Part shown: positions 22,898 to 39,083 of the stretch, piece after piece | How positions within the stretch are numbered: the stretch's first letter is position 1 | Layout of the letters: each line of letters starts with the position of its first letter | Virus record (IMG/VR): IMGVR_UViG_3300021962_000234 | Coordinates: 1 to 40,894 of that record | DNA length: 40,894 bases | Strand: one strand, 5' to 3' | From: a virus | The notes under the pieces: generated by a model | Databases searched by the model: none | Told to the model about the DNA's origin: nothing | Seen by the model: the letters and a program-made list of their open reading frames with translations, nothing else | Made by a program: the position numbers and the translations under genes

Positions 22898-22909
22898 GAC
22901 TCAGTCGTT

Positions 22910-23831: not shown

Positions 23832-23860
23832 AAAGTACCTGTACTACAGATATAAGTCAA
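23832..23860 (-). promoter_or_regulatory. Promoter of the 23.8-21.9 kb minus-strand operon
   Basis: On the minus strand, TTGACT (23855-23860), a 17-base spacer and TACTTT (23832-23837) precede the first gene by ~60 bases. The -10 is weak, and one AAGTAC motif overlaps it, which would allow repression. Confidence 0.5.
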
Positions 23861-23893
23861 CCCACAGACCGTTTTAAGTACTTAACCAAGTAC
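23833..23893. promoter_or_regulatory. Operator-like cluster of AAGTAC motifs
   Basis: AAGTAC occurs at 23833, 23876 and 23888, the middle copy inside the perfect palindrome TAAGTACTTA (23875-23884). Further copies lie at 23974 (inverted) and 24144. The cluster brackets the promoter and looks like a repressor-binding array. The binding protein is unknown; the RHH or winged-helix proteins are candidates. Confidence 0.45.
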
Positions 23894-24228: not shown

Positions 24229-24291
24229 GAGCGGGGCTTGGTAGCTTCAACGCCTGGGCCGGCCGTTTGGATATTAAGCCAGGCCCCGCTC
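24229..24291. terminator. Strong inverted repeat between operons
   Basis: GAGCGGGGCTTGG (24229-24241) pairs over 13 bases with CCAGGCCCCGCTC (24279-24291), with one T-G pair. On the minus strand it follows the Nmad1 stop by ~14 bases and could end that transcript, although the T-run is poor. It also contains a CGGGGCT motif (24232-24238). Confidence 0.5.
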
Positions 24292-24304
24292 TTCAAAATA
24301 GTTA

Positions 24305-24778
24305 CTATTTAAGCGGCAGCAAGAATCGCTGTGATTCCCACATGATTCCAATCGCAGAATATCCAATGATGTCCATCAATGTGTCCTCAATTGATTCGTT
24401 TTGAGGAATTCCTTCTTGATCCCAGAGATTCTCGAGGCGAGCGACTTTGTCGTGGGTACGAATACAAAGGCCTTGGCGTCCAAAGCGACGAATATTCTCG
24501 GATCCGTAGTCTCGTTGTTTGCTGATCAGGATTTTGGTTAAACGTTTAACCGAGAAATCAAATTGTTTTTTAATTGCGAGCTCCCAGGCATCTGCTCCAA
24601 CAACTGACCAGCGAGCAATCATTCTTTCCGACCCGGACGGTGTGTGAAAAAATTCGTCAACCATCTCATCAAAATCAGTACGCAACTGAACTAGGTCAGT
24701 GCGGGGTTTAAACCTCACTTCTGAATTGATTAGTTGTACAGCAGCCTCAGCTGCATCGTTCCATGAGCTGTATTCCAT
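24305..24778 (-). CDS. Nucleotide modification associated domain 1 protein (Nmad1, DUF1599)
   Basis: The C-terminal ~95 residues carry the family signature: LISKQRDYGSENIRRFG, then RTHDKVARLENL and NESIEDTLMDIIGYSAIG. The preceding helical part is phage-specific. The family is found next to phage DNA-base-modification genes and is thought to act on nucleotides; the exact reaction is not known to me. ATG 24778 is nine bases after a possible -10 (GATAAA); a longer start at 24802 lies inside repeat B. 157 or 165 residues. Confidence 0.75.
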   Translation of the reverse strand: MEYSSWNDAAEAAVQLINSEVRFKPRTDLVQLRTDFDEMVDEFFHTPSGSERMIARWSVVGADAWELAIKKQFDFSVKRLTKILISKQRDYGSENIRRFGRQGLCIRTHDKVARLENLWDQEGIPQNESIEDTLMDIIGYSAIGIMWESQRFLLPLK

Positions 24779-24798
24779 ATATGACTTTTTATCACACG

Positions 24799-24847
24799 TC
24801 ATCCGCCGCCGTCAAAAAAAGACACTATCTGCGGCGGGGCTCCGAAG
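24799..24847 (+). repeat. Repeat element B
   Basis: TCATCCGCCGCCGTCAA (24799-24815) to CGGGGCT (24835-24841). CCGCCG and CGGCGG form a 6-bp stem around an A-rich loop. It lies in the gap between the Nmad1 gene and the next minus-strand gene. On the minus strand it offers TTGACG as a possible -35. Confidence 0.75.
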
Positions 24848-24853
24848 GGGGAA

Positions 24854-25087
24854 TTACCAGTAGCGCCAGCTCCGCCCCCAACGAGGAGAAGTTGAGCGCA
24901 GATACTTGGCTGTGCCAGGAAGCTTATTTTCAATGAGCTCCGGCAGAACAATATGAATCAAGATGTCAATCGAGCGAACAAAACGACAAGGTGATCCAAG
25001 GGTGAAGCGACTCTTCGCCGGCTGTTCAGCTGCGCACAGGCGATCAAATGTCTCGCGCATGCCCATATGTGGGCTAAGCACACTCAT
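24854..25087 (-). CDS. Hypothetical basic protein (77 aa)
   Basis: The start ATG overlaps the stop of a tiny upstream frame (ATGA), suggesting coupling. The protein is basic, with one mildly hydrophobic helix (IDILIHIVLPELI) and an Arg/Trp-rich C-terminus (RWGRSWRYW). No family recognised. Moderately supported by position in the operon. Confidence 0.5.
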   Translation of the reverse strand: MSVLSPHMGMRETFDRLCAAEQPAKSRFTLGSPCRFVRSIDILIHIVLPELIENKLPGTAKYLRSTSPRWGRSWRYW

Positions 25088-25143
25088 CGCGACCCAAGAA
25101 CTCCTCCGAGAAAGATTATGAAGGCAAGTGTTGTAATTGTCAT
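25084..25143 (-). CDS. Membrane microprotein 1 (19 aa)
   Basis: ATG 25143 to TGA 25084-25086 encodes MTITTLAFIIFLGGVLGSR, a single hydrophobic helix. It starts just after the upstream stop and its own stop overlaps the next ATG. Three similar peptides with the same arrangement occur elsewhere in this window, which is the main support. The ribosome site is weak (GAAAG). Confidence 0.5.
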   Translation of the reverse strand: MTITTLAFIIFLGGVLGSR

Positions 25144-25144
25144 G

Positions 25145-25399
25145 TTAGTTACTTTCTACTGCGTCGTCGGCAATGATCTGGCGAATCATGATGTAAGGAA
25201 ATGACACCCAGTCCGCATCTCGAGTGTCAATTTTAAAAGGATGACGCATGCGTGGGTTGCGGAAAACGCCGTGCGTCAGGTCTTGTATGTCAAGAGACTT
25301 ACCGCTAAATAAAGCACGAAAGTTCTCGCCACTTTTCATCGTGACGAGAACTTCGCGTCCTACGAGCTTTTCAACTTCGGTGCGTGTCAGGTTTTTCAC
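25145..25399 (-). CDS. Hypothetical protein with small beta-barrel-like core
   Basis: GTG 25399 overlaps the upstream stop (GTGA); an ATG at 25420 would add seven residues. EVLVTMKSGENFRALFSGKS looks like the strands of an Sm-like or SH3-like small barrel, and the C-terminus is mixed. Function unknown. Confidence 0.55.
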   Translation of the reverse strand: MKNLTRTEVEKLVGREVLVTMKSGENFRALFSGKSLDIQDLTHGVFRNPRMRHPFKIDTRDADWVSFPYIMIRQIIADDAVESN

Positions 25400-25938
25400 G
25401 CCTGGCCTGCGGACCAACATTCAACAAGCTGCGTGGTGCTAAGAGCTTTAGCGAGTTTCCCCCATTCAAGGTCAACCCATTTGAGCTGCACGCCCTGGTA
25501 ACGCATTTGGCCAGCAGCGAAATACCAGCGGAAGATGTCTGTATCTTCACCGCGCCACTCAATCCATGATTCGTCTTTAACCCAAGGCGAGATGGCGCAG
25601 AAGAAAAGGTCTTCCTGTCCCTGCTTGTTGTTGTAAACGAGGTCAATCAGATTGCCCTCGTCGTCATAAGTTGGATCAAACCCGAGCTCAACCAACATTT
25701 GGTGAAATGTTGCAATAGTCTCTGGATAGTTCGCATCCATCCAGGAGAACCAACGCGCAGGATGGTGATCCATACCCTCAGGCCGAGGATCGTCAGAGCT
25801 GATGTCATTGCCCCAGCCGCCACCGCGCTTCAGATGGTCGTAATCGTTAAGCTTGCACATCGCCCTGTAGCAAGATGCAAAGTCTTCTTTCTTGATGAAG
25901 AATTCTGATCCTTCGGTACGAACGTAGTAACCCATCAC
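25396..25938 (-). CDS. Conserved-type actinophage protein (180 aa)
   Basis: Starts MMGYYVRTEGSEFFIKKED, a beginning shared by many actinophage early proteins of unknown function. Rich in Trp and acidic residues (ARWFSWMDANYPET, DESWIEWRGEDTD, FRWYFAAGQMRYQG). No metal or nucleotide motif. The ATG overlaps the previous stop (GTGATG). Confidence 0.65.
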   Translation of the reverse strand: MMGYYVRTEGSEFFIKKEDFASCYRAMCKLNDYDHLKRGGGWGNDISSDDPRPEGMDHHPARWFSWMDANYPETIATFHQMLVELGFDPTYDDEGNLIDLVYNNKQGQEDLFFCAISPWVKDESWIEWRGEDTDIFRWYFAAGQMRYQGVQLKWVDLEWGKLAKALSTTQLVECWSAGQA

Positions 25939-26246
25939 TTCACCCCAGCAGTCTGCTTGATGCGCGACTCAGCAAATTCCTTGTGCTCCTGCATGACGCA
26001 GTCAACAATCTGAGTGTTGGCCTCGGCCATCTTGCCTGCGAAATCCCAAACTTCGCTGATGTCGTGGAAGGTGAAGGTGATAGATGAACCAGATGCATAC
26101 GATCCATCTTTTTCGCTATTCCACTTGATCTGAATGGTGTGGAACCAGGGCGTGCCCTTCTCCACCGTATCGCTTTCGTGGTAGTAGGTACGGAAACTTA
26201 CCTCTGGCTTATATACGTGAGCCGCACGGATATCTGTGGTTGACAC
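25935..26246 (-). CDS. Hypothetical protein (103 aa)
   Basis: First gene of a four-gene minus-strand operon. Strands such as VSFRTYYHESDT and SSITFTFHDISEVW suggest a beta-rich fold. The ORF opens at 26246, just after the CTAGGAGGC site (~26252-26260). Function unknown. Confidence 0.6.
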   Translation of the reverse strand: MSTTDIRAAHVYKPEVSFRTYYHESDTVEKGTPWFHTIQIKWNSEKDGSYASGSSITFTFHDISEVWDFAGKMAEANTQIVDCVMQEHKEFAESRIKQTAGVK

Positions 26247-26283
26247 TTTTGCCTCCTAGGCGTAGTGGTTAATAGGTGGCCTC

Positions 26284-26312
26284 AATATAGCCACTAACCG
26301 CATGACTGTCAA
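26284..26312 (-). promoter_or_regulatory. Sigma70-like promoter
   Basis: Minus strand TTGACA (26307-26312), 17-base spacer, TATATT (26284-26289). Nearly consensus. It drives the operon from 26246 to 24854, with a ~20-30-base leader containing AGGAGG. Confidence 0.8.
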
Positions 26313-26317
26313 CCTAT

Positions 26318-26788
26318 CTAGCTATTTTTTTCTGCTTCCCGGTCAGCTTTTGGATCGCGAACCTCATAGAGGCCACGCTTGATTTTACGAAAGAGATCTG
26401 GCCTGTCCGCGATCAGTTTGAGGGCCGTCGGATAAGAAATTTCTCCGAGCTCCGCGATCTCAGCAGCTGTCACCTGGGCAAAAACATTTTCTTGACACCA
26501 AGAGTAGATAGTCCCGTACTTGTCAGAACGACGAACTTTCTTATCTGGCTCTACCTGGACAAATCCAAAGATGTCTGCCGCAACTTTGGCATCAATCGAG
26601 TAATAAGAGACAAGCTCCTTGACGGAAAGAGAAGGATTTGTAATTGCACACATACGTGCGCGATCGCGCTCAGCGATTCTTTCTTTAACATCTTTGGGAA
26701 TGGAAAATACACTCCCGTACTGTTTTGATGCTTTTGCCCAATCCTCTTTGCCGAGTGCGCACGCTTCTTCGTAAGTAAAATAACTCAT
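26318..26788 (-). CDS. Possible helix-turn-helix protein (156 aa)
   Basis: I chose ATG 26788 (MSYFTYEEACALGKED) because a TAGAAT -10 box ends exactly seven bases before it, fitting a leaderless message; a start at 26809 has no ribosome site either. The C-terminal region (VTAAEIAELGEISYPTALKL, then IADRPDLFRKIKRGLYEVRD) resembles a winged or simple HTH. Likely a regulator. Confidence 0.6.
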   Translation of the reverse strand: MSYFTYEEACALGKEDWAKASKQYGSVFSIPKDVKERIAERDRARMCAITNPSLSVKELVSYYSIDAKVAADIFGFVQVEPDKKVRRSDKYGTIYSWCQENVFAQVTAAEIAELGEISYPTALKLIADRPDLFRKIKRGLYEVRDPKADREAEKNS

Positions 26789-26795
26789 TGTTGGA

Positions 26796-26801
26796 ATTCT
26801 A
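26796..26801 (-). promoter_or_regulatory. -10 box of a leaderless gene
   Basis: Minus strand TAGAAT, seven bases before ATG 26788. The -35 position holds TTCTCG with a 17-base spacer, which is weak. Confidence 0.5.
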
Positions 26802-26836
26802 TCAATCATCTGCTCGAGCGAGAAAGTCTTTGCAAG

Positions 26837-27004
26837 CTACAGACCTTCCTTCATGTCAATAACTTTTGCGCCCATTCCGACAAGTGTCTTGGCACAACTA
26901 AAGCAAAACCAACCTTCCCCAGAGAGGGTCATGTCGGGAGTAAAAAAAACCCTGTAGAAGCCTTCGCCGCTACAGGGGGTACCGAGACCTTGGCAGTCAG
27001 TCAT
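26837..27004 (-). CDS. Small Cys-rich protein, probably zinc-binding (55 aa)
   Basis: Starts MTDCQGLGTPCSGEGFY and contains WFCFSC, giving a CxnC...CxxC arrangement. Two in-frame ATGs lie just upstream (27007, 27010). It overlaps the end of the next-described paralogue by eight bases. The two proteins share CQG, a second Cys and a late CxxC, so they arose by duplication. Function unknown. Confidence 0.6.
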   Translation of the reverse strand: MTDCQGLGTPCSGEGFYRVFFTPDMTLSGEGWFCFSCAKTLVGMGAKVIDMKEGL

Positions 27005-27167
27005 CATCATTGCCCTTTACTCCAAAAATTTCAGCACCAGAGTTCTTGAGAATCTGGATGCAGTTGGAACAAAGCCAGCAGCACCCGGCGTCCGAAAGAT
27101 CAGGCATGAGGTAGGAAGCGTAAACAACTTCATCGCTACATGGCCCGTAAAAACCTTGGCACTCCAT
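26997..27167 (-). CDS. Small Cys-rich protein, paralogue (56 aa)
   Basis: Starts MECQGFYGPCSDEVVYASYL and continues with CCWLCSNC, again a likely zinc site. The ATG overlaps the upstream stop (TGATG). Ends GNDDD before TGA 26997-26999. Tandem paralogue of the 26837-27004 protein. Confidence 0.6.
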   Translation of the reverse strand: MECQGFYGPCSDEVVYASYLMPDLSDAGCCWLCSNCIQILKNSGAEIFGVKGNDDD

Positions 27168-27370
27168 CAGATACCCACCGCCTCGAGAAACTTACTGCGA
27201 TCAAAACGTGGATTGTCACGCTTCATTGCGTCGCACATGCATTCAACAGCGATTTGAAAAGCTGTGCGTTGGTCGCTCTCGCCATCTCCCTTTGATGCGA
27301 TGCAACCATCCAGGTTGCGAAGAGTGATTGCCAGCTCCTCCGCCAAACGTTTGTAGTCCTTACGGGTCAT
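27167..27370 (-). CDS. Conserved-type small actinophage protein (67 aa)
   Basis: MTRKDYKRLAEELAITLRNL and the C-terminal DNPRFDRSKFLEAVG form a pattern found in many actinophage early regions, with unknown role. A strong ribosome site (AAGGAGGAATA) precedes ATG 27370. Entirely helical by eye. First gene of a three-gene operon. Confidence 0.7.
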   Translation of the reverse strand: MTRKDYKRLAEELAITLRNLDGCIASKGDGESDQRTAFQIAVECMCDAMKRDNPRFDRSKFLEAVGI

Positions 27371-27395
27371 TATTCCTCCTTGATTAGGTATGCGT

Positions 27396-27424
27396 ATTCT
27401 AAACAGCCATCAAGAAAAAAGCAA
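27396..27424 (-). promoter_or_regulatory. Sigma70-like promoter
   Basis: Minus strand TTGCTT (27419-27424), 17-base spacer, TAGAAT (27396-27401). It precedes ATG 27370 by 25 bases with an AGGAGG site between. Confidence 0.65.
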
Positions 27425-27491
27425 CTACCTAAAAGGCTAAATTACTTCGAGTGGCCATGGCCGGGCAAACAAAAAAGAATCCGCCGGCAGC

Positions 27492-27539
27492 TCATCCGCC
27501 ACCGTCATAAAAAAGACGCATCTCAGCGGGGCTTCGGAC
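27492..27539 (+). repeat. Repeat element C
   Basis: TCATCCGCCACCGTCA (27492-27507) to CGGGGCTTCGGA (27527-27538). It lies in a 233-base gene-free gap between divergent genes. Upstream is GGCCGGGCAAACAAAAAAG (27459-27477), a module seen before other copies; downstream an inverted TAGCCCCGTTA (27573-27583) can pair with the CGGGGCT arm. Confidence 0.8.
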
Positions 27540-27603
27540 GCACAGCTGCAGCTATACGCGATGTATGCCTGGTAGCCCCGTTAGCTGTAGTAAAGTCCTA
27601 CTC

Positions 27604-27981
27604 ATGAACATTACAAAAAGATGGGACAACAAAGTCCGAGCCCTCGAGGAGTACGTAAAGCTAAATGGAACAGCTCTCGTGCCGGCAACTGCAAAGATTG
27701 AAGTTGACGGGACTGTTGTGAGCTTGGGGCCATGGGTTTGCGCTACTCGAGCTGCCTACCACAGGGGCGATCTTATGCCTCACAGAATTACTCAGCTTGA
27801 ATCTTTTCCTGGATGGAACTGGGGCCCGCTTAAGCCGGGAAGAAAAGTTTCTCCGAAGCGCGATCAGGAAATTGTTCAGGCGCGCGAATCAGGATTGAAG
27901 CTTGAACAGATTGCTGAACAACATAATCTGTCGCGCCAGAGAGTTCATCAGATCGTGAAGAGGTCAAAAATAAATGCCTAG
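27604..27981 (+). CDS. Helicase-associated domain plus helix-turn-helix protein
   Basis: 125 residues from ATG 27604. Residues ~5-72 (WDNKVRALEEYVKLNGTALV ... SLGPWVCATRAAYHRGDLM) fit the helicase-associated (HA) domain, a small three-helix DNA-binding unit found in actinobacterial helicases. Residues ~83-122 (RDQEIVQARESGLKLEQIAE, then QHNLSRQRVHQIVKR) form a sigma-region-4-like HTH. The combination suggests a small DNA-binding protein. It overlaps the next gene by eight bases. Confidence 0.75.
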   Translation: MNITKRWDNKVRALEEYVKLNGTALVPATAKIEVDGTVVSLGPWVCATRAAYHRGDLMPHRITQLESFPGWNWGPLKPGRKVSPKRDQEIVQARESGLKLEQIAEQHNLSRQRVHQIVKRSKINA

Positions 27982-28228
27982 AGAGTTCAGCCGAAGCAAT
28001 TGGCCACAGGAAGAAGAAACTGACGAGCAGCAAATAAGAACCTGGACAGCGTTTTTTACGTTCGTTTGGGGATCGTTGTTTTTAACAGCTTCACTTTGGC
28101 TGACATTTTGGGTTCTTGAATCAGAGGGCGTGATCAGCTGGATGATTCCGTGGTGGAAGTGCGGAATACTTTCGTACTGCTTCTTGATTATCTTTGGGAT
28201 GACGCGAATCGGTAAACGACAGCAATAA
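27974..28228 (+). CDS. Two-helix membrane protein (84 aa)
   Basis: An acidic N-terminus (QEEETDEQQ) is followed by two hydrophobic segments (TAFFTFVWGSLFLTASLWLT and WKCGILSYCFLIIFGM) and a basic tail (RIGKRQQ). Coupled to the upstream HTH gene. Role unknown; early membrane proteins of phages often act in exclusion. Confidence 0.6.
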   Translation: MPREFSRSNWPQEEETDEQQIRTWTAFFTFVWGSLFLTASLWLTFWVLESEGVISWMIPWWKCGILSYCFLIIFGMTRIGKRQQ

Positions 28229-28272
28229 AAAAAGCCAGCGCCTCGGTCAGAAAGGAAACCGAGACGCTGGCT
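28226..28272 (-). terminator. Rho-independent terminator for the 28.7 kb minus-strand gene
   Basis: AGCCAGCG-C-CTCGGT pairs with ACCGAG-A-CGCTGGCT, leaving an 11-base loop (CAGAAAGGAAA). On the minus strand it is followed by seven Ts (28227-28233). It sits between convergent genes and can also protect the plus-strand transcript end. Confidence 0.85.
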
Positions 28273-28337
28273 AGCGTCGTGCAGCAGGGCAAGGAGGTGG
28301 AGTCCCCGCGCACAGAGCGCCGTACCTAGTTTAATGA

Positions 28338-28748
28338 CTAGGCAACGGCGGTGACGGAAGTCGTCTGCGAGGCCTCCACAGCCTGCGCAACACGGATCTG
28401 CGAGTAATCGCTGTAATCCGTGCATGCTTCCGCAATGTCTGTCGGCAGAGACCCAAGCTTCACGGCCGCCTTGAACTTCTCTCCATCCACGACACTCTTG
28501 ATAAGTGTCTTGAAGAGGTTTGGCTTAACCATTTGCTTCAGCTTCTCAATGTCGTATGACGGACGACGTCCTTCAACGATAGAAACCTTGACGCCGTCAA
28601 CAACAACGGAAGTAGTCATTCCGTTTGCCATTGCGAGACGCATTGCGTTCTCTGCCTTTTTGAGAGCGTCTTCAGCTTCAGACTTTGCCTCGCGAGCTGC
28701 GAGATAGTCGGAAACCGCCTTGCTCATTTGTCCTGCGCTTGCTTTCAT
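28338..28748 (-). CDS. Coiled-coil protein (136 aa)
   Basis: The first ~45 residues are a long amphipathic helix (VSDYLAAREAKSEAEDALKK AENAM, broken here by a space), then a small beta unit (TSVVVDGVKVSIVEGRRPSY) and a helical tail with VVDGEKFKAAVKLG. Preceded by TAAGGAGGAATAAA. It has its own promoter, a ~120-base leader and a terminator, so it is a single-gene transcript, probably expressed strongly. Function unknown. Confidence 0.65.
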   Translation of the reverse strand: MKASAGQMSKAVSDYLAAREAKSEAEDALKKAENAMRLAMANGMTTSVVVDGVKVSIVEGRRPSYDIEKLKQMVKPNLFKTLIKSVVDGEKFKAAVKLGSLPTDIAEACTDYSDYSQIRVAQAVEASQTTSVTAVA

Positions 28749-28906
28749 TTTATTCCTCCTTAGTAAGTGATTTGAGTGTGGGATCGTCCAGTTCCGATCC
28801 CACGAATGTGGTTTTTGGTGCGGGATGAACTGGCACCCCTTAACTTAGTAGCACGACAACCTCCTATGTCATAGCTCAATTTACATGCGACTAAATAGAA
28901 AGTCAA
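28749..28906 (-). promoter_or_regulatory. Promoter and structured leader of the coiled-coil gene
   Basis: Minus strand TTGACT (28901-28906), 17-base spacer, TAAATT (28878-28883). The leader holds AGGAGG followed by a tiny frame (GTG CTA CTA AGT TAA) and then the hairpin GTGGGATCG/CGATCCCAC (28777-28803 region) before the real ribosome site. This layout could allow attenuation or translational control; that is inference. Confidence 0.6.
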
Positions 28907-28909
28907 CCC

Positions 28910-29161
28910 CTAAGAGATAATTTCCCAAGAATCTTCTTCAGGGACGAGGCCAAGGCTTGAACCGTCATCCCAAGTGACATGAACAGTGCCATGATCATCA
29001 ATGAGATTGATTGTTCCTTCTGCTCCCGGCAAGAGCTTCGTGAATTTATCAGTCGTTGAAGTAAGGCGAATGCGCCTCCCCACGAGAACTTTGTTGAGGC
29101 TTTCTTGAATGACATGAATTAACAGCGACATGTCATCGTTGAGGTTGTTGTTAGTAGACAT
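28910..29161 (-). CDS. DUF4314 protein
   Basis: I chose ATG 29161 (MSTNNNLNDDM), which sits exactly seven bases after a -10 box, so the message is leaderless; a frame open to 29206 is not needed. 83 residues. VGRRIRLTSTTDKF, then PGAEGTINLIDDHGTVHVTW and DDGSSLGLVPEEDSW match the DUF4314 small beta fold of phages and Gram-positive bacteria. Function unknown. Confidence 0.75.
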   Translation of the reverse strand: MSTNNNLNDDMSLLIHVIQESLNKVLVGRRIRLTSTTDKFTKLLPGAEGTINLIDDHGTVHVTWDDGSSLGLVPEEDSWEIIS

Positions 29162-29167
29162 AAGAAC

Positions 29168-29196
29168 ATCAAAGCAGCTTAAATAGAAAATGTCAA
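29168..29196 (-). promoter_or_regulatory. Sigma70-like promoter giving a leaderless message
   Basis: Minus strand TTGACA (29191-29196), 17-base spacer, TTTGAT (29168-29173), then seven bases to ATG 29161. Geometry is the same as at 31.95 and 39.08 kb. Confidence 0.7.
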
Positions 29197-29253
29197 CCCG
29201 TGTCAATAATAAATATTTAACTGCAGAGATCTGCCGGCCGGGAAAAAAAGAAG

Positions 29254-29303
29254 ATCATCCGCCACCGTAAAAAAAGAAGAACACCGCCAACGGGGCTCCG
29301 GAG
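29254..29303 (+). repeat. Repeat element D
   Basis: ATCATCCGCCACCGTAA (29254-29270) to CGGGGCTCCGGAG (29291-29303). A GCCGGCCGGGAAAAAAAGAA module stands just upstream. It lies between the DUF4314 promoter and a terminator. Confidence 0.8.
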
Positions 29304-29335
29304 TGCTTCTTCGTGTAGCTGCATAATCCTGGGCA

Positions 29336-29378
29336 ACAAAAAAGGGGCGTCCGACGGAACTGATCCGCCAGACGCCCC
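29336..29378 (-). terminator. Rho-independent terminator
   Basis: GGGGCGTC (29344-29351) pairs with GACGCCCC (29371-29378); on the minus strand a run of Ts follows (29338-29343). It ends the 29394-29828 transcript. A T7 tract on the plus side (29389-29395) may make it bidirectional. Confidence 0.85.
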
Positions 29379-29393
29379 TTTGGGGTGGTTTTT

Positions 29394-29828
29394 TTATGCG
29401 CAGAGACTGTGAGCGAGATCGCTCATTTGGTTCGCGAGTGCGCCACGGCCTTCGCCTTCATCGGTGAAATGCGAGCCATCAGCGAAATGGATCACAGAAG
29501 CCGACGTTTGGCGGGTGAAGACTGTAATCAGCGTCACGCGACAACGTTCAGGGTGTTCGCTCGGTGGCGTAGAAGGCTCATCTTCGCCTTCCTGGATCGG
29601 AGAAGCCCATCCCGACGTCAATGCGCCTACAGCCGCGTAGCCGTTCTTCACGGCGGGCGATTCATGCGCTTGCTCAATGGCGTGGTAAATGTCCATAGCC
29701 GAGCTGAGAACGGAGATGCCTTCATCATCAACCCCGAAAATGATTGCCTCGGGCAGTTTCTTTTCAGGATCAAGCGTTGCTTGCCCGAAGTGGTCAGAGG
29801 CCTTGAGGGCCAAGTCCAATGTTTTCAT
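29394..29828 (-). CDS. Hypothetical protein (144 aa)
   Basis: A single-gene transcript with clear promoter, ribosome site (AAGGAAGGAATAAT) and terminator. Soluble, acidic; a helical N-terminus (MKTLDLALKASDHFGQ) and a middle with IIFGVDDEGISVLSSA. No signature recognised. The isolated, well-signalled gene suggests strong early expression. Confidence 0.65.
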   Translation of the reverse strand: MKTLDLALKASDHFGQATLDPEKKLPEAIIFGVDDEGISVLSSAMDIYHAIEQAHESPAVKNGYAAVGALTSGWASPIQEGEDEPSTPPSEHPERCRVTLITVFTRQTSASVIHFADGSHFTDEGEGRGALANQMSDLAHSLCA

Positions 29829-29858
29829 ATTATTCCTTCCTTGTTGTGAACAGGGTAG

Positions 29859-29887
29859 ATGATAGCGACCAAAAAATGCTTTGTCAA
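29859..29887 (-). promoter_or_regulatory. Sigma70-like promoter (minus)
   Basis: Minus strand TTGACA (29882-29887), 17-base spacer, TATCAT (29859-29864). Strong match. It drives the 29394-29828 gene and is arranged back-to-back with a plus-strand promoter. Confidence 0.8.
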
Positions 29888-29891
29888 ACTA

Positions 29892-29920
29892 TTGCATTTC
29901 TTTTTTATTAGTCATATACT
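29892..29920 (+). promoter_or_regulatory. Sigma70-like promoter (plus)
   Basis: TTGCAT (29892-29897), 17-base spacer, TATACT (29915-29920). It drives the two genes at 29947-30743. Its -35 lies four bases from the -35 of the divergent promoter, so both could share a regulator. Confidence 0.75.
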
Positions 29921-29946
29921 GAGACTCCCAACAGAAAGGAACAAAA

Positions 29947-30480
29947 ATGGGATTGGACAATATGCCACACGAGTACCCGTGCAAGACACAGGGTACGGCG
30001 ATCATGGAACAACGTGTAAGCCAAAAGACTGGCGAAGCATTGCTTGACGAAGACGGTCAGCCAATGATGACGATCAAGTGCGAAGAAACACAAGAAGCTG
30101 GCGGTTGCCCGTATCAAAACGCTTTCGCCAAGTCCGGGATTACTGAGGGTCGCGTTTATGGGATGTTTGGTACGGACTGCTGGTATCGCGGTAAATACGG
30201 CAACGCGATCTTGGCCGAGGCCTCGCACAACAGCATGGATGACGAGTTCACCTTCTACGGCGATAATGATGATGCAAGCCACAAGTCAGCCGAGTCCTGT
30301 ACCCAGCTGGCCGACTTCATCAAGGTCGTTACGGCCTCTTATGAAAATGAAGACATTGCCGCAGATGCCGACAAAGAGTTTGCCGAAGATAAGGCCGACG
30401 TCCTGAATGGCCTCCGCTACGCTGAGTGGTATCTCCGCTGGGCGGCAGCTGAGTGTGGCGGATTGGATTGCTGGTACTAA
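29947..30480 (+). CDS. Conserved-type actinophage protein, Cys-rich (177 aa)
   Basis: MGLDNMPHEYPCKTQGTAI, then KCEETQEAGGCPY, GMFGTDCWYRGKYGN and LDCWY form a pattern I associate with actinophage early regions. Conserved Cys residues could bind metal. A good ribosome site (AGAAAGGAAC) precedes the ATG. The stop overlaps the next ATG (TAATG). Function unknown. Confidence 0.7.
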   Translation: MGLDNMPHEYPCKTQGTAIMEQRVSQKTGEALLDEDGQPMMTIKCEETQEAGGCPYQNAFAKSGITEGRVYGMFGTDCWYRGKYGNAILAEASHNSMDDEFTFYGDNDDASHKSAESCTQLADFIKVVTASYENEDIAADADKEFAEDKADVLNGLRYAEWYLRWAAAECGGLDCWY

Positions 30481-30743
30481 TGGAAATGAAGTTTTACTCC
30501 GACGATCAAGAAAAAGAAGTGATTGAGGTCGCTGAACTTATTCTTGAAGGATATTTTGGACTTGGAACCACCGGCGCGGATGCCATCGTGGACTGTCTTC
30601 GCGATCTCGTGAGCGGTCAGATGAATGTCTCGGAGTGGGAAACAGACGACGACACGGTTTTCCGTGCTGTCGCGATGATCGGGATGAAGCTGCAAGAGGA
30701 AAACAAGCTGCATCAAATGATCGTCCCCCTCCCGGTCGTATAA
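30480..30743 (+). CDS. Hypothetical acidic protein (87 aa)
   Basis: I chose ATG 30480, overlapping the previous stop, over an upstream GTG frame at 30453. Mostly helical (DDQEKEVIEVAELILEGYFG, then TGADAIVDCLRDLVSG). Coupled to the upstream gene; followed at once by repeat E. Function unknown. Confidence 0.6.
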   Translation: MEMKFYSDDQEKEVIEVAELILEGYFGLGTTGADAIVDCLRDLVSGQMNVSEWETDDDTVFRAVAMIGMKLQEENKLHQMIVPLPVV

Positions 30744-30749
30744 AAAAGG

Positions 30750-30833
30750 ATCATCCACCACCGTAAAGGAGGTGGAAGTCCTTAGCCCCGTTGCCCGCTG
30801 TCCTGCTGCTTTATGGCCAGCGGGGCTTCGGAG
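30750..30833 (+). repeat. Repeat element E (long copy)
   Basis: ATCATCCACCACCGTAAA (30750-30767) to CGGGGCTTCGGAG (30821-30833). CCACC can pair with GGTGG nearby. An inner inverted arm AGCCCCGTTG (30784-30793) pairs with CAGCGGGGCT (30818-30827), a 10-bp stem with one wobble pair. It lies just after the 30480-30743 gene and may also end its transcript. Another CGGGACT stands at 30898. Confidence 0.8.
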
Positions 30834-30923
30834 GTTGGGCCTGAGTTTTTAGACTTAGCTAACCCAGGGCGATTCTCTCGGTGAGGGGTAGACTTGGCGG
30901 GACTCTAGCGCTAGACTGTCGCA

Positions 30924-31118
30924 ATGGCGTTGTTTGCGTGCAAAGTGTGCGGCATTGAGCTGAATAAAGATACGCCAGGCATCAGCCGGCATGTAAAGGG
31001 TTGGCAAAAGTACGGCTCCACAACCGTGGCCTACACTGAAGAACTCTTTGAGTATGCGCACACTGTATGTCTGAGCATGCGAAAAAGCCCTAGCACCCAA
31101 GCTGAGAGCTTGTTTTAG
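30924..31118 (+). CDS. Small zinc-finger-like protein (64 aa)
   Basis: CKVCGIELNKDTPGISRHVK gives CxxC plus a later His; VCLSM adds another Cys. A TAGACT box ends six bases before the ATG, so a leaderless start is possible, with no good -35. The end of the gene lies inside a strong hairpin. Function unknown; nucleic-acid binding is possible. Confidence 0.55.
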   Translation: MALFACKVCGIELNKDTPGISRHVKGWQKYGSTTVAYTEELFEYAHTVCLSMRKSPSTQAESLF

Positions 31119-31130
31119 GCGCTAGGGCTT
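31082..31130. terminator. Terminator hairpin at the end of two convergent genes
   Basis: AAGCCCTAGC pairs with GCTAGGGCTT, with an inner CAAGC/GCTTG stem. On the minus strand it is followed by five Ts, ending the 31.9-31.15 kb transcript; it includes the last codons of the plus-strand gene. Confidence 0.75.
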
Positions 31131-31147
31131 AATCGGTTGTTTGACTG

Positions 31148-31198
31148 TCAGCCGGCCAGGAGAAAAGCAAGCACAAGTACCAAGAAAACGGTACCCAT
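31148..31198 (-). CDS. Membrane microprotein 2 (16 aa)
   Basis: ATG 31198 overlaps the stop of the upstream gene (TAATG) and encodes MGTVFLVLVLAFLLAG, one hydrophobic helix, ending at TGA 31148-31150. The same arrangement recurs at 25.1, 33.5 and 35.5 kb. Confidence 0.5.
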   Translation of the reverse strand: MGTVFLVLVLAFLLAG

Positions 31199-31626
31199 TA
31201 AAGGCCCAAGCGTTCTGCCTCGTCTTCGCTAACTGGCCAAAGCTGCGAGGCTCCACCCATGCTGTCGTGGTGACTGAGCGAGTAGGCAACATGATCAGCG
31301 TGCACGTTGTAGCGCAACGTCCAGCTTGAGTCAACTGTCATGCCACGGAGAATGTCAACTACCTTCTCGGCGTGGAAATAACCGCTAACGGTACGATTCC
31401 AAAGGTTGAGATCCTTGACATGCCACCATCCAGTCTCATTTGACTCACGGAGTGACTTGGTATCTTCGCTGAACAATTCAACGACGAACTCCCAGCAATC
31501 GCCGTAGCAATCATCGGCCGGCTCATCGGTGAACTCTTCTTTGATCGTGTCGTACTTAACGCAGGTGCAGTCGTTTGATACCTCCGACTGCCAAAGGCCT
31601 AGATGATCCCCGAAGAGAGTGGTCAT
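31198..31626 (-). CDS. Conserved-type phage protein (142 aa)
   Basis: I chose ATG 31626 (MTTLFGDHLGLWQSEVSNDC), with AGAAAGGAAAT upstream, over a longer frame to 31701 that runs into the upstream gene. Acidic, with several Trp and Cys (CYGDCWEFVVELF, ETGWWHVKDLNLWN) and a C-terminal DHVAYSLSHHDSMGG. Function unknown. Shares a transcript with the upstream 102-aa gene and with microprotein 2. Confidence 0.65.
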   Translation of the reverse strand: MTTLFGDHLGLWQSEVSNDCTCVKYDTIKEEFTDEPADDCYGDCWEFVVELFSEDTKSLRESNETGWWHVKDLNLWNRTVSGYFHAEKVVDILRGMTVDSSWTLRYNVHADHVAYSLSHHDSMGGASQLWPVSEDEAERLGL

Positions 31627-31639
31627 TTTTATTTCCTTT

Positions 31640-31948
31640 CTATTTATTGGTAGAGAAATTTGAGTAGTACGCGATGTGATCATGAAGTGCGCCAGTATCA
31701 CGCCAGTCAGGCAAGTTGTCTGTCATCCACTCGTGAGCAACGGAGAAAAGGCCTTCAACCGTGATCGTCGGCTCGCTTGTTTCATAATCCCAAACATTTA
31801 CACAGTCAAAAGCCTGGTCGGGAACATCCCCAATCGCAATATCTACGTATGGGCCGCCATGCCAGGTGAAAATGAATCCGTCAACGGCCAGCTGAAAATA
31901 TTGATCGCCCGTATCCGGGTCGGTGAGAGTTTTGATCTTGTTACGCAT
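31640..31948 (-). CDS. Hypothetical protein (102 aa), leaderless
   Basis: I chose ATG 31948 (MRNKIKTLTDPDTGDQYFQL), exactly seven bases after the -10 box. Beta-rich start, then FIFTWHGGPYVDIAIGD and an acidic helical end (VAHEWMTDNLPDWRDTG). No family recognised. First gene of the three-frame operon to 31148. Confidence 0.65.
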   Translation of the reverse strand: MRNKIKTLTDPDTGDQYFQLAVDGFIFTWHGGPYVDIAIGDVPDQAFDCVNVWDYETSEPTITVEGLFSVAHEWMTDNLPDWRDTGALHDHIAYYSNFSTNK

Positions 31949-31955
31949 GCGCAAG

Positions 31956-31984
31956 ATCATATACGAAGCTATCCAATAATGCAA
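31956..31984 (-). promoter_or_regulatory. Sigma70-like promoter giving a leaderless message
   Basis: Minus strand TTGCAT (31979-31984), 17-base spacer, TATGAT (31956-31961), then seven bases to ATG 31948. Confidence 0.75.
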
Positions 31985-32074
31985 CTCTATTGAATAATAT
32001 CTCGACTGGCCCAGATGATTAGATCGCAAGCCCGGCCGGCAGCTGAAGAAAAAGACAAACAATCTCGACTGGCC

Positions 32075-32145
32075 ATCATCCGCCACCGTCAAAAGAAGAA
32101 GACAGCGCGACAGTCCCGTCCGCCCCCGGACGGAGGAACGGGGCT
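32075..32145 (+). repeat. Repeat element F
   Basis: ATCATCCGCCACCGTCAA (32075-32092) to CGGGGCT (32139-32145), with the perfect inner hairpin CCGTCCG/CGGACGG (32116-32133). Confidence 0.8.
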
Positions 32146-32688
32146 CTGGCCCAGGCTGTTTAATTCTGCGAGAAAACTTACTCTTTGCGCTCGAGGAGCT
32201 GACCTGGATCTAAAAATTTAGATTGCAGCTACTGCGCCTGGTGAAGTGATCGCAATTTTTGCTCAAACTGGGGCCCGGAAATTGAATTTTGGGCAGAGCT
32301 CCGCCGCGAATGCGTGTAGCTACCGGCAATACTACTTTGTAAAAATAAAAAAACAACCCTGGAGCTAGGAAAAAAATGCCCGCATGTACACGTGTGTATC
32401 GCAAAAAATACAAGCCAGATGGCGTATTGCGGGCAATACACCCAGTAGCCCCGCATGTTTTATCTTTATTCCGCCGGCCCTGGATGCGCTGAGGTAGGTG
32501 GTTACCTTTTTGGCGACTTTTGGTTGCCCAGATGCGTGCTGAAACCCTTACAGAATAAGGACTTCAAAAAACTCGTTTTCCCCGTAAAATTTCTGACTTT
32601 TGAAAACTGACTTCACCACCCCGGGGCAAAGAAAAAACAAACCGCCGCTGCCGGGCCCTGTGGAAAAACTCCGACGGCGCGACTCGAG

Positions 32689-32769
32689 TCATCCGCCACC
32701 GTCAATAGAAGATGGCGCGCCGCCAGCCCCGTCTTCTTGGATCTTGTAGCTACGTGTAGCTACGGGACT
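32689..32769 (+). repeat. Repeat element G with palindromic hairpin
   Basis: TCATCCGCCACCGTCAA (32689-32705), an inverted AGCCCCG (32726-32732) inside a GAAGA/TCTTC stem, then the perfect hairpin GTAGCTAC-GT-GTAGCTAC (32746-32763) running directly into CGGGACT (32763-32769). Confidence 0.8.
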
Positions 32770-32779
32770 CTGGAGTAGA

Positions 32780-32873
32780 GGCGTAGTCACATCATTACTT
32801 CCCCGGAGGCTAAGTGTAATGAAGCGGAGCGTAATGTAACGATGCCGTTGGGGAATGTAATGGGTGCGAAGCC
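32780..32873 (+). repeat. Structured element S1 (candidate ncRNA or ssDNA structure)
   Basis: CATTACTTCCCC (32793-32804) pairs with GGGGAATGTAATG (32850-32862), one bulge; an outer GGC/GCC may extend it. The apical core contains GAGGCTAAGTGTAATGAAGC and CGATGCCGTTGG, shared with S3 and S4. First of four related elements whose stems differ in sequence but still pair. Confidence 0.7.
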
Positions 32874-32934
32874 AACCGGGTCTGTGTTCTTATTCATTAC
32901 GGGACTAGCGACCATAAACAGTCTCTGAAAAGGC

Positions 32935-32971
32935 GAGAGCCACCGCGCATGTCAGAAACGCGGTGGCTCTC
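32935..32971 (-). terminator. Perfect 13-bp hairpin terminator
   Basis: GAGAGCCACCGCG pairs with CGCGGTGGCTCTC. On the minus strand TTTT follows shortly after. It ends the minus-strand operon 34015-33069 about 100 bases after its last stop. Confidence 0.75.
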
Positions 32972-33068
32972 CACCCCCCAAACGAGACATCGGACTGAAA
33001 ACGATGTCAATTGAGAAGCTAGCACTAGCTCCGTGGAGAAGTCCACGAATAACGGAAAGTCAGTAGTT

Positions 33069-33326
33069 TTAGTCAACAGACCTGGCAACCGGCAGGTCGC
33101 AGATAAGGCATTTCATGCGACGCAGAGTGCGTACTTGCATCTTGCGGTAGCGAAAGTGCACATTGTCGCCAGTGCCACCTTCGGTTGCGTGAAGATGGGT
33201 GAAGTTCAACCCACCTTCAACGCACCACTCGCAGATAAACGCTTCATGCGTGTCGCTGTAAACGACCTCAATGACAACTTGGTCAAAGTCATGTTTATCG
33301 TGGTAGTTGTAGTAAAAAGTTTTCAC
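33069..33326 (-). CDS. Small Cys-containing protein (85 aa)
   Basis: I chose GTG 33326 (VKTFYYNYHDKHDFDQVVIE), which overlaps the stop of the upstream TM protein (GTGA); an ATG at 33416 would give an unlikely Arg-rich start. It has CEWC and a late CLIC with intervening His, a possible zinc ribbon (FICEWCVEGG ... MKCLICDLP). Function unknown. Confidence 0.55.
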   Translation of the reverse strand: MKTFYYNYHDKHDFDQVVIEVVYSDTHEAFICEWCVEGGLNFTHLHATEGGTGDNVHFRYRKMQVRTLRRMKCLICDLPVARSVD

Positions 33327-33442
33327 AGTTCGTCGTCGTATGGTTCGTTGAACTCGTCTGCAGTGATCAAAATGTATGCGTAGGCGAGTGCGCACGCAAG
33401 ATACACGAGTGCGCAAGTAAGCCCGATAGTACGAAGAATCAC
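33323..33442 (-). CDS. Small membrane protein (39 aa)
   Basis: GTG 33442 after GAGGAGGATGTT. It reads (M)ILRTIGLTCALVYLACAL then AYAYILI, a single membrane helix, followed by an acidic tail (DEFNEPYDDEL). The stop overlaps the next start. The strong ribosome site makes expression likely. Confidence 0.6.
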   Translation of the reverse strand: MILRTIGLTCALVYLACALAYAYILITADEFNEPYDDEL

Positions 33443-33452
33443 AACATCCTCC

Positions 33453-33503
33453 TCACGACGCCAAGAGAATCCCGATAAGGATCGCAAAAAATACAGTAAT
33501 CAC
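33453..33503 (-). CDS. Membrane microprotein 3 (16 aa)
   Basis: GTG 33503 overlaps the stop of the upstream gene (GTGA) and encodes (M)ITVFFAILIGILLAS, ending TGA 33453-33455. Same arrangement and composition as the other microproteins. Confidence 0.5.
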   Translation of the reverse strand: MITVFFAILIGILLAS

Positions 33504-34015
33504 CAGATCTGAAATCCTCCGCTATGGCGCAGAAAGAGCGCAAATTCCTGGACATTCTCAACCGAGAATGGGTAGCTGGCTTCAAACGAATCAACAACCC
33601 CTTCACCATGGCAACCATTGCAATAACCATGCGTGCGTCCAACTACCAAGGCAGTTGCCTCATCAAGTTCACGATCAGGAAACCCAAGATCAAGACCGAC
33701 GGTGTCAGTGCGAATACCAGTTGCATTGCACCATTCGCAGTTCTTGCGAGGAAGGTTTGCAATGTGCTCACGGTATCCCTCTTCGTATGACTTGGTGATG
33801 CCAAGTTCAATCTCACGAAACAGGATGTCAGCAAGTTGGCTGGCACCTTCGGCGTTGAGTCCATCTCCGTCGTTGAATTGACCATCCACGTCAGAACAGA
33901 GTTCCGGAGCTGCCGTTTCGCAGTAGTTCCACAACGGGCGCCACCACCAAACATTGTTCCTGAAGTACTCACCACACTTTTCCGTGGGGTTCCTTCCGAT
34001 TACATCCATACCCAT
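33500..34015 (-). CDS. Conserved-type phage protein with two CxxC zinc-binding pairs (171 aa)
   Basis: Starts MGMDVIGRNPTEKCGEYFRN and continues NVWWWRPLWNYC, a beginning shared by a widespread phage and bacterial protein of unknown role. CEWCNATG (~108) and CNGCHGEG (~148) form a DnaJ-like zinc site. Ribosome site AAAGGAGGCATT. It has its own promoter. First gene of a four-frame operon with two membrane miniproteins. Confidence 0.75.
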   Translation of the reverse strand: MGMDVIGRNPTEKCGEYFRNNVWWWRPLWNYCETAAPELCSDVDGQFNDGDGLNAEGASQLADILFREIELGITKSYEEGYREHIANLPRKNCEWCNATGIRTDTVGLDLGFPDRELDEATALVVGRTHGYCNGCHGEGVVDSFEASYPFSVENVQEFALFLRHSGGFQIW

Positions 34016-34042
34016 AATGCCTCCTTTGTATAGGTAATGAAG

Positions 34043-34071
34043 ATCATAAAAGCTTTAAATAAAAAAAGCAA
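34043..34071 (-). promoter_or_regulatory. Sigma70-like promoter
   Basis: Minus strand TTGCTT (34066-34071), 17-base spacer, TATGAT (34043-34048). It drives the 34015-33069 operon with a ~20-30-base leader. Confidence 0.75.
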
Positions 34072-34090
34072 CCCAGATGAAAACTAAAAA

Positions 34091-34516
34091 CTACGAGACT
34101 GGCCAAAAGTACGGGAGATCATCCTCCACCAACCAATTCCATTGGCCGTAGAAAGCGCGATCCTTGCGAAGAAGATTGCTTTGGTGGCTCAGGTGTACTC
34201 GCGAATCTCCCCACCAGGCCGGCAAATCATCAAATTCCGGGCTCGAGACGGCAAGCAGCTTTTCCTTGCATGTGTCTTTGTAGCCCCGCCCAATCCACTC
34301 GTCGCAGATTGCAACTCCGTAAGCGATCAGGCCGCCGAGATTCTTTTCCCACATCTTTGTAGCTGGGTGGTTCCGCCATCCATGACTTTTTCTTCCGGTG
34401 ACCGGGACAAGCGCTTGGACAATTTGAAGCGTTTCAACTCTTTGTTTCCCGAGGCGCTGGCGATCAAGAACTCGAGCGCACTGGTCAAAATGCTCATAAG
34501 GTACGAATGTCTGCAT
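34091..34516 (-). CDS. Pyrimidine-dimer-glycosylase-like / MSMEG_6728-type protein
   Basis: I chose ATG 34516 (MQTFVPYEHFDQCARVLDRQ), with GGAGG eight bases upstream. 141 residues. RLGKQRVETLQIVQAL, WRNHPATKMWEKNL, then HLSHQSNLLRKDRAFYG and DDLPYFWPV match a bacterial family related to T4 endonuclease V (pyrimidine dimer DNA glycosylase). A DNA-repair role against UV damage is likely for a sunlit-water phage but is not proven. Confidence 0.7.
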   Translation of the reverse strand: MQTFVPYEHFDQCARVLDRQRLGKQRVETLQIVQALVPVTGRKSHGWRNHPATKMWEKNLGGLIAYGVAICDEWIGRGYKDTCKEKLLAVSSPEFDDLPAWWGDSRVHLSHQSNLLRKDRAFYGQWNWLVEDDLPYFWPVS

Positions 34517-34535
34517 TAGTAAATCCTCCGTAGCT

Positions 34536-34584
34536 ATCATCCACCACCGTAATAATAATGTCAACCTGTTACGGGGCTTTTGAC
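34536..34584 (+). repeat. Repeat element H, overlapping a minus-strand promoter
   Basis: ATCATCCACCACCGTAA (34536-34552) to CGGGGCTTTTGAC (34572-34584); GTAA/TTAC brings the arms together. On the minus strand the same DNA reads TTGACA, 17-base spacer, GATGAT, a promoter for the glycosylase-like gene; the -10 is the first part of the repeat. Confidence 0.75.
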
Positions 34585-35179
34585 CCAAGATGCCCAGATC
34601 AACTCAAGCTACCCGCAGCTGCTGAAAAAACGTTCTGCCGGGAAGGCCGGCAGCTGGAAAAAGGGAGTTTTGTCCTCTCGAGCAGCTCGGATCCGGCTCT
34701 CGAAGGAGAAGTTTTTAACTTTGCACGCGCGCGACCCGGGTAAAGCCGATAAAACCAAGCTGGAATGGCCTTGTCGGCATCGTTAGCCCCGTCTTCAGCT
34801 ACTTATACGAAGCATTAGTGATTACCAGGTAGCGCATCAATCCAAAACTAGCCATAAATGACCATACGGGACTAGCGAGTCATATGTTGCAGCAAGGTAC
34901 TTGCTACTACATATGCGAGCGGGACTAAGACCTTACCTGTACTGCGGGCTTAGTTCATGTCTTTATTACAAAGAGGTCAGAAGCGTAAGTAGTGAAGCAC
35001 AGCGTAACGGATGTAGCGGTTGACCGTTTTGTAATAAAGGATGACTAAGACCTCATAAGTTGTCTAGTGAATCATTACGGGACTCATGACCTTCAAACAG
35101 TTAAACCACATGTCAAACCAGCCCGAGCCTCGAGTTCAGAAAGACAAAGCCCTCGAGTTTAGAAAAACATTTAAAAAAG
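34585..35179. other. Gene-free stretch with structured element S2 and four CGGGACT or inverted motifs
   Basis: A plus frame at 34558-34743 lacks a ribosome site and looks accidental. It holds a GCCGGCAGCTGGAAAAAGG module (34647-34665), TAGCCCCGTC (34784-34793), CGGGACT at 34867, 34920 and 35078, and element S2. An A-rich segment precedes the strong whiB-2 promoter. Confidence 0.6.
34949..35049 (+). repeat. Structured element S2 (candidate ncRNA or ssDNA structure)
   Basis: The longest stem of the family: CTTAGTTCATGTCTTTATTA continuing CAAAGAGGTCA pairs with TGACC, GTTTTGTAATAAAGG and ATGACTAAG with few bulges (~22 pairs). Core AGAAGCGTAAGTAGTGAAGC and GGATGTAGCGG correspond to S3 and S4. 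Flanked by CGGGACT on both sides. Confidence 0.75.
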
Positions 35180-35208
35180 TTGACAACAGGAGCCGGCGCA
35201 CGTATATT
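35180..35208 (+). promoter_or_regulatory. Strong sigma70-like promoter of the whiB-2 operon
   Basis: TTGACA (35180-35185), 17-base spacer, TATATT (35203-35208), then ~30 bases with AAGGAG to ATG 35238. Almost consensus. Confidence 0.85.
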
Positions 35209-35237
35209 GATTAAACCTACTAACTAAGGAGCTATAT

Positions 35238-35498
35238 ATGACCTGGCGTCTCGACCGCAACTGCGAAGACAAAGATGTCTCGTTTTTCTTTCCATCCGAC
35301 CGCGGAGGAGTAAAACGCGCAATCAAAGTTTGCAGTGAGTGCACTGTAAAGGCCGAATGTCTCGAATTCGCAATCTGCAATCAAATCACCGACGGCATTT
35401 GGGGTGGTACCACGGAAACATCTCGTATCAAGCTGATTCGTGAGCGCTTTGGCCGCCTTGGTAATGTTGATTTCAATTACATGGCGGTTGAGGCATGA
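35238..35498 (+). CDS. WhiB-family transcriptional regulator (WhiB-2)
   Basis: 86 residues. Cys at 9 (DRNCEDKDVSFFFPSD), then CSECTVKAEC (~32, 35, 41) bind the iron-sulfur cluster; GIWGGTTETSRIKLIRER is the Wbl turn and basic tail. Differs from WhiB-1 in length and N-terminus, so it is not a recent duplicate. First gene of an operon with microprotein 4, DUF3846 and probably the SNF2 helicase. Confidence 0.92.
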   Translation: MTWRLDRNCEDKDVSFFFPSDRGGVKRAIKVCSECTVKAECLEFAICNQITDGIWGGTTETSRIKLIRERFGRLGNVDFNYMAVEA

Positions 35499-35554
35499 GC
35501 ATCGTTAGCGTACTCTTTGTTGTAGTACTTGGCGCACTTTTTGGAGCGCAATAA
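35495..35554 (+). CDS. Membrane microprotein 4 (19 aa)
   Basis: ATG 35495 overlaps the whiB-2 stop (ATGA), and its TAA overlaps the next ATG (TAATG). It encodes MSIVSVLFVVVLGALFGAQ, close in pattern to microprotein 1 (an I followed by hydrophobics, then LG.LxG). Double overlap strongly suggests translation. Confidence 0.6.
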   Translation: MSIVSVLFVVVLGALFGAQ

Positions 35555-35919
35555 TGTTTGCGACTGGTCTCTATATTGACGGTAACCGCATCACTCGCGT
35601 GCAGGTGAACACAAATAACAACTCATCAATCTCAGACATGATTGACGGAGACATTGATGCCGTCACGAGGACAACCCAAGACGGACAAATGTTTTCAGTC
35701 TTTGTTAACGACATTGGTCTTTTTAGCGATTTTGAAATGAATCCAATTGCTTCAATCATTGCTGGAAGCTATCTTGTTGGGCCAGCCGTGATCACTGGAA
35801 CTGCGCCGAACGGAGAAACAACTTCGGTACCAGCTTCAGTCATTGCGCACGCAACACATATCCTTGAGACCATGGCCCTTCATCAGGCCTTCGGTTCGTC
35901 AGATCAGCTGCCTGTATGA
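35554..35919 (+). CDS. DUF3846-like protein (121 aa)
   Basis: The middle and end (GDIDAVTRTTQDGQMFSVFV, then IASIIAGSYLVGPAVITGTA and ASVIAHATHILETM) fit the DUF3846 pattern, a small phage protein of unknown function with a conserved GDxxV...NE/ND, GxxVI order. Coupled to microprotein 4 by one base. Confidence 0.6.
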   Translation: MFATGLYIDGNRITRVQVNTNNNSSISDMIDGDIDAVTRTTQDGQMFSVFVNDIGLFSDFEMNPIASIIAGSYLVGPAVITGTAPNGETTSVPASVIAHATHILETMALHQAFGSSDQLPV

Positions 35920-35935
35920 ACGATTACAATCATCA

Positions 35936-39076: not shown

Positions 39077-39083
39077 GCAAAGT

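Follow-up and report, generated by a model that had tools for sequence, protein, structure and literature searches.

Putative single-helix membrane microproteins at gene ends in a phage genome and its relatives

Short hydrophobic frames adjoining gene ends

The window analyzed here is a virus record of 40,894 bases, IMGVR_UViG_3300021962_000234. Its left half carries tail, endolysin, tryptophan halogenase and proteasome-like genes, and its right half small accessory genes, a WhiB gene, a helicase gene and an SSB-like gene. Our subject is a set of very short open reading frames (microORFs) placed at the ends of genes, each encoding little more than a hydrophobic helix. Four of them, m1 to m4, had been proposed in an earlier note on this DNA, and all four translate as proposed. 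A hydrophobicity scan of all short frames revealed a fifth frame of like architecture, m5, which had been overlooked. The five frames are:

25084-25143, minus strand: m1, MTITTLAFIIFLGGVLGSR; starts one base past the TAA of the gene at 25145-25420 (TAAcATG); its stop overlaps the ATG of the next gene, 24854-25087 (ATGA)
31148-31198, minus strand: m2, MGTVFLVLVLAFLLAG; TAATG overlap with the stop of the gene at 31198-31626
33453-33503, minus strand: m3, (M)ITVFFAILIGILLAS; GTG start; GTGA overlap with the stop of the gene at 33500-34015
35495-35554, plus strand: m4, MSIVSVLFVVVLGALFGAQ; ATGA overlap with the stop of the WhiB gene; also joined downstream, by a TAATG overlap with the DUF3846 gene
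38736-38783, minus strand: m5, MITLSLLLLVGYLLA, i.e., (M)ITLSLLLLVGYLLA; GTG start; GTGA overlap with the stop of the gene at 38780-39112

A direct hand-over to an overlapping downstream gene is found in the window for m1 and m4 only. The peptides considered in this study are 14 to 20 residues long and strongly hydrophobic by both Kyte-Doolittle and Wimley-White sums, and those of the window fall into two types, m1/m4 (..LGxxxG-S/A-R/Q) and m2/m3/m5 (MxT...LLA). The full-length likeness of m1 and m4 claimed previously was borne out: they align without gaps over 19 residues, 6 of which are identical, and none of 50,000 shuffles of m4 aligned as well.

Conservation and distribution of the frames

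Relatives were retrieved by homology to the flanking proteins. Their nucleotide identity to the window is 99.99% over 20 kb for G005, about 90-92% for G001, G002 and G003, and 75% over 6 kb for G004. All near relatives that span the sites keep the start, the stop, the length and the hydrophobic helix. The m1 peptide reads MTITTLAFIILLGGMLGSR in G003 and is identical in G005, that of m2 is identical in G003, and that of m3 reads MITVLFAILIGIILAA in G001, G002 and G003. For m4, which is coupled at both ends throughout, we found MSMISLIFVVVLGAFFGAQ in G003, MSMISFVFIVVLGAFFGAR in G002 and MSTASFILLFALGGIVGLR in G004; the corresponding m5 peptides are MITLGLLLLVCYLLA, MMTLGLLLLVAYLLA and MVTIALIILLAYFVS. 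In G004 the sequences of m4 and m5 are largely rewritten, yet they remain open, hydrophobic and coupled to the preceding gene. A neutral simulation at this divergence left the frame open and hydrophobic in 2% (m4) and 1% (m5) of the runs. Nucleotide changes between close pairs number 15, 2 and 22 at codon positions 1, 2 and 3, respectively. Position 2 sets hydrophobicity, and its deficit has a p-value of 3e-5, which is approximate, some sequences being common to several pairs.

The frames recur at gene ends in other phages. Homologs of the m2 gene are followed, at the same junction, by a helix frame of 16-18 residues with unrecognisable sequence: MIATVIVVFVIALILSQ in L109, whose homolog is 47% identical, MIALVVIGLLLMTLID in L135 and MIVAVVVIVALILLVGSN in L129. 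Three phages (G009-G011) carry microORFs after an RSTSPRWG gene, i.e., a homolog of 24854-25087, after an FSDPRDF gene and after a small C-rich gene; three more (G012-G014) carry them after an m2-gene homolog and after small C-x-x-C genes, and G007 after three unrelated genes.

For a further profile, 156 loci were chosen by neighbour homology, independently of microORFs. Of the 361 frames starting between -4 and +8 around the stop, 29 are hydrophobic with 14-20 residues, as are about 12 of 1,500 elsewhere, i.e., starting at least 13 bases from the stop and within 52 bases; the loci include the window's own kin, and families, not rows, are to be counted. An earlier profile with wider limits gave 40/478 at junctions versus 106/4,128 (p=3e-9). 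Enriched start offsets are d=-4, -1 and +2.

Starts that overlap or adjoin the upstream stop (ATGA, GTGA, TGATG, TAATG) are the arrangement expected for termination-reinitiation. Coupling at ATGA/TGATG overlaps is general, and was strict in 13 of 14 pairs tested in other organisms (PMC6728339). Shine-Dalgarno-like pairing of -4 kcal/mol or stronger is present ahead of 60% of the microORFs. For the starts of long genes, a rough set taken as the first ATG of long frames, the share is 39%, and for random sites it is 15%. Furthermore, the microORF copies of the d locus have AGGAG-like sites at good spacing. On the sequence evidence the frames are very probably translated genes.

Paralogous copies and a possible action on the membrane

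Copies within one genome resemble each other. A single contig of G007 carries MEILTFFTFCVFVVWLWS, MWTLQFFAFCAFVVWLWS and MQPILFFAFCGFIVWLWS after unrelated genes, with the common pattern xxFFxFCxFxVWLWS. G010 encodes MIEMLTALVVLIIIAAL on one strand and MIEMLTALVFLIIIASV on the other, the genes before them being unrelated; 41 of the 54 bases of the frame are common (76%), several of the differences are silent, and the upstream sequences share 6 of 24 bases, i.e., chance level. Over all loci, likeness is greater between loci within a phage group than between groups (p<1e-4; 0.0003 without G007). Such likeness within a phage would be hard to explain unless the peptide itself were the selected product and its copies had a common target. 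We are confident that, in any one phage, the copies form a single paralogous family.

An origin by chance in T-rich DNA has in its favour that any genome abounds in short hydrophobic frames, and the window scan yielded many, mostly antisense or out of frame. Chance accounts neither for the enrichment at junctions, which has an internal control (in the carrier set, i.e., the window phage, its kin and other carriers, 23 of 85 short frames at junctions are hydrophobic versus 0 of 90 at displaced positions), nor for conservation, codon-position bias and paralogs. We regard this origin as exceedingly improbable and, for the set as a whole, as refuted; any single copy could still be spurious. As far as comparison of sequences can tell, selection maintains short hydrophobic helices at the ends of genes, in several dispersed copies. 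The earlier note's proposal of real membrane microproteins is well supported by conserved place, length and hydrophobicity, few changes at position 2, and paralogs within genomes. Insertion of the peptides into the membrane is highly likely.

As roles, that note had considered membrane effectors, exclusion peptides and translation couplers. Either of the first two may apply. As couplers or spacers, the frames would only ferry ribosomes to the next gene, and the peptide would be a by-product. Through m1 and m4, joined to both neighbours, ribosomes would indeed run into the next gene. However, m2 and m5 are the final frames ahead of terminator-like hairpins, the copies after m2-gene homologs in L109, G012 and G013 likewise precede strong hairpins, and seven copies run into a convergent gene whose stop overlaps their own; no gene follows that could be coupled. 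Nor does this explanation address the selection for hydrophobicity or the paralogy. A general coupler role does not fit these copies, and we consider it quite improbable.

The same relative frame in most copies (d = -1 or +2) would suit a C-terminal membrane tail, fused to the upstream protein by frameshifting at the stop codon. Since the frame of m1 and several other copies is a different one (d = +3, +4, +7) and the start codons are conserved, such tails are very improbable, somewhat more so than couplers; slippery sequences were looked for only by reading the junctions.

Alternatively, each peptide may serve as a small subunit in the membrane, tethering or regulating the product of the gene before it. 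Coupled synthesis would yield matched amounts of the two, and the microORF is kept after the m2 gene in four phage types. On the other hand, the upstream proteins are unrelated (WhiB, small C-x-x-C proteins and others), yet the peptides of one phage are alike; moreover, at loci where the microORF converges on a gene whose product ends in YAHxVC..LF, the microORF is kept while the gene upstream of it differs between groups. Single partnerships are less likely because the upstream genes are unrelated, and a common target is favoured because the peptides of one phage are alike. We judge individual partners unlikely, though the most plausible of the alternatives.

The explanation that we prefer, with some reserve, is a selected family of coupled single-helix membrane peptides that may act on the host membrane. 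Ribosomes that end the upstream gene would reinitiate at the overlapping start, and the released peptide would enter the host inner membrane as a single helix; both steps follow from established knowledge. The copies of one phage might then have one common membrane target or assemble with each other, a step with less support. Their scatter over several transcripts would set dose and timing, rather than reflect partnership with each upstream protein. Our best guess is that the peptides alter the energised host membrane in infection, be it its potential, its permeability or one of its proteins, perhaps as a defence against a second phage. It is tentatively suggested that some phages, probably actinobacterial ones, have a dispersed multi-copy system, in which one peptide, duplicated behind several unrelated genes and dosed by several transcripts, would change membrane energetics or exclude other phages through the joint action of its copies. 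If this is true, micro-genes of about 45-63 bases have been duplicated and moved as units.

In size, in the single hydrophobic helix and in little sequence conservation, the peptides resemble the Ibs/Sib type I toxins such as IbsC of E. coli. Ibs toxins occur in several paralogous copies per genome, as the peptides do in these phages. IbsC has 19 residues, stays toxic when shortened to 15 provided that 10 or more are hydrophobic, and causes membrane depolarisation (PMC8309996). An antisense RNA represses the Ibs genes, whereas each phage frame is joined to another gene's stop. The stand-alone toxin transcript of Ibs has no counterpart here: four of the five window frames overlap the preceding stop, and a single base separates the fifth from it. 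By this analogy, an IbsC-like action on the membrane is conceivable but doubtful.

Several points weigh against a membrane-active family. The comparison with IbsC is an analogy only, and an Rfam search of 22000-40894 at E<=0.5 returned no Sib or other antitoxin RNA and no match of any kind above cut-off, although an undescribed RNA would escape it. Likeness among hydrophobic peptides is partly compositional. Furthermore, m1 and m3 are known in close kin only. The earlier note had named as evidence against its claim that relatives keep the gene and lose the frame. No near relative does so; distant ones do, namely L108, which has the m2 gene at 56% identity without the frame, and relatives of the 171-aa (m3) gene at 63% identity or less. 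Finally, G007 and G009-G014 were picked for carrying the frames, so that the contrast of 23/85 in the carrier set with other phages is partly selected and illustrative only; the 29/361 profile is free of this selection. Those other sequences comprise Arthrobacter phages in which the 25396-25938 gene has a homolog, the cultured actinophage DSL-LC01, the pelagiphage HTVC023P, 13 bacterial loci and two other contigs; of their 105 frames at junctions, none is hydrophobic. A distant helicase relative, L104 (57%), does not have the frames either. The microprotein set is lineage-restricted.

Known systems, neighbouring genes and host

Holins and pinholins belong to lysis cassettes; the endolysin gene lies at 17003-17761, the microproteins at 25-39 kb and on both strands. 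Three 20-residue members, the size that the scan covered, had no Pfam or PHROGs match at E<=0.1, holins included. KdpF, CydX and YohP are single helices as well, often encoded in an operon. They have about 27-40 residues and occur as single copies, and two of them, KdpF and CydX, are partners of a neighbouring enzyme. In contrast, the phage peptides have 14-20 residues and occur in several copies after unrelated genes.

Conserved hydrophobic microproteins are already known as a kind, as can be taken from the available parts of two articles (PMC11188072; PMC11323111, on phage small proteins). The intergenic microproteins of Enterobacteriaceae described in the former are likewise short conserved frames, of 15-70 codons and mostly hydrophobic; they are, however, chromosomal and intergenic, and the part of that article available to us reports no dispersed, paralogous, gene-end-coupled phage sets. 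By the latter, a review, the microORFs would be among the very many small phage genes that lack annotation; its available part describes no membrane peptides of 14-20 residues that form a family of several coupled copies. The open-access literature, outside which most subscription journals fall, yielded no dispersed paralogous set of 14-20-residue gene-end-coupled peptides in one phage genome.

The microORF genes are too short for usual annotation, yet the phages that have them carry two to five each. If translated, they rank with the smallest membrane proteins for which selection is in evidence, and they show that a gene of about 50 bases can duplicate and spread inside a genome. They would also offer minimal membrane-active peptides, produced in infection, as a set that lends itself to testing, and the stop-start junctions provide a simple rule to find more.

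The genes and elements next to the frames are:

24854-25087, minus strand: gene after m1; family ending RSTSPRWGxSWRxW
25145-25420, minus strand: gene before m1; weak Sm-like match, below cut-off
30924-31118, plus strand: gene for a 64-aa C-x-x-C protein, convergent to m2, ending YAHxVC..LF
31082-31130, minus strand: terminator-like hairpin with T run after m2; downstream fold -34.5 kcal/mol
31198-31626, minus strand: gene before m2, 142 aa
33323-33442, minus strand: gene after m3, 39 aa; GTG start, GGAGGA upstream; one helix and acidic tail DEFNEPYDDEL
33500-34015, minus strand: gene before m3, 171 aa, C-x-x-C pairs
35238-35498, plus strand: WhiB-family gene before m4 (Pfam Whib, E=3.5e-17)
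35554-35919, plus strand: DUF3846 gene after m4 (Pfam, E=1.7e-8)
38692-38727, no strand assigned: terminator with a 14-bp stem and a T run, separating m5 from the convergent SSB-like gene
38780-39112, minus strand: gene before m5; own N-terminal hydrophobic helix

The 39-residue protein with an acidic tail had been pointed out before; the GGAGG just upstream, a Shine-Dalgarno-like site of its own, and the single helix agree with that claim, and helix and tail are kept in relatives, with an indel. Homologs of the YAHxVC..LF gene stand tail-to-tail with a microORF in the window's kin, G007 and G009-G014. The two stops overlap or abut in seven phages, with CTAG common to most. Further-diverged homologs have no microORF neighbour. 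Among the loci examined, homologs of this gene occur in about 30 distinct phage loci.

Two candidates were set aside. An antisense hydrophobic frame at 25118-25204 (plus strand), opposite m1 and its upstream gene, is open in G003, but it runs across coding sequence of the other strand and is probably a shadow of it; it was not counted. An Rfam match to Thr_leader over m5 scored 27 bits against a cut-off of 55 and was taken as chance.

The WhiB gene points to a host among the Actinobacteriota. The closest cultured match to the 171-aa protein is that of the Actinomycetia phage DSL-LC01, from a lake, and the phage may be of freshwater origin. A search of annotated phages at the DNA level found no near relative of the window, and annotated phages gave no homolog of the m2 gene, the RSTSPRWG gene or the FSDPRDF gene; hence no cultured carrier was found. 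Phages isolated on Ca. Planktophila (PMC10202952) did not appear among the matches either. The 171-aa protein has no match in Pfam or PHROGs, yet it represents a widespread phage family: IMG/VR contains at least 572 relatives, and bacterial genome contigs from several phyla carry copies as well. In the left half, among the tail genes, the tryptophan halogenase gene occupies 8128-9615 (plus strand; Pfam Trp_halogenase, E=6e-102), and a match to the HslV/proteasome family lies at 20897-21529 (plus strand; phrog_1040; Pfam Proteasome).

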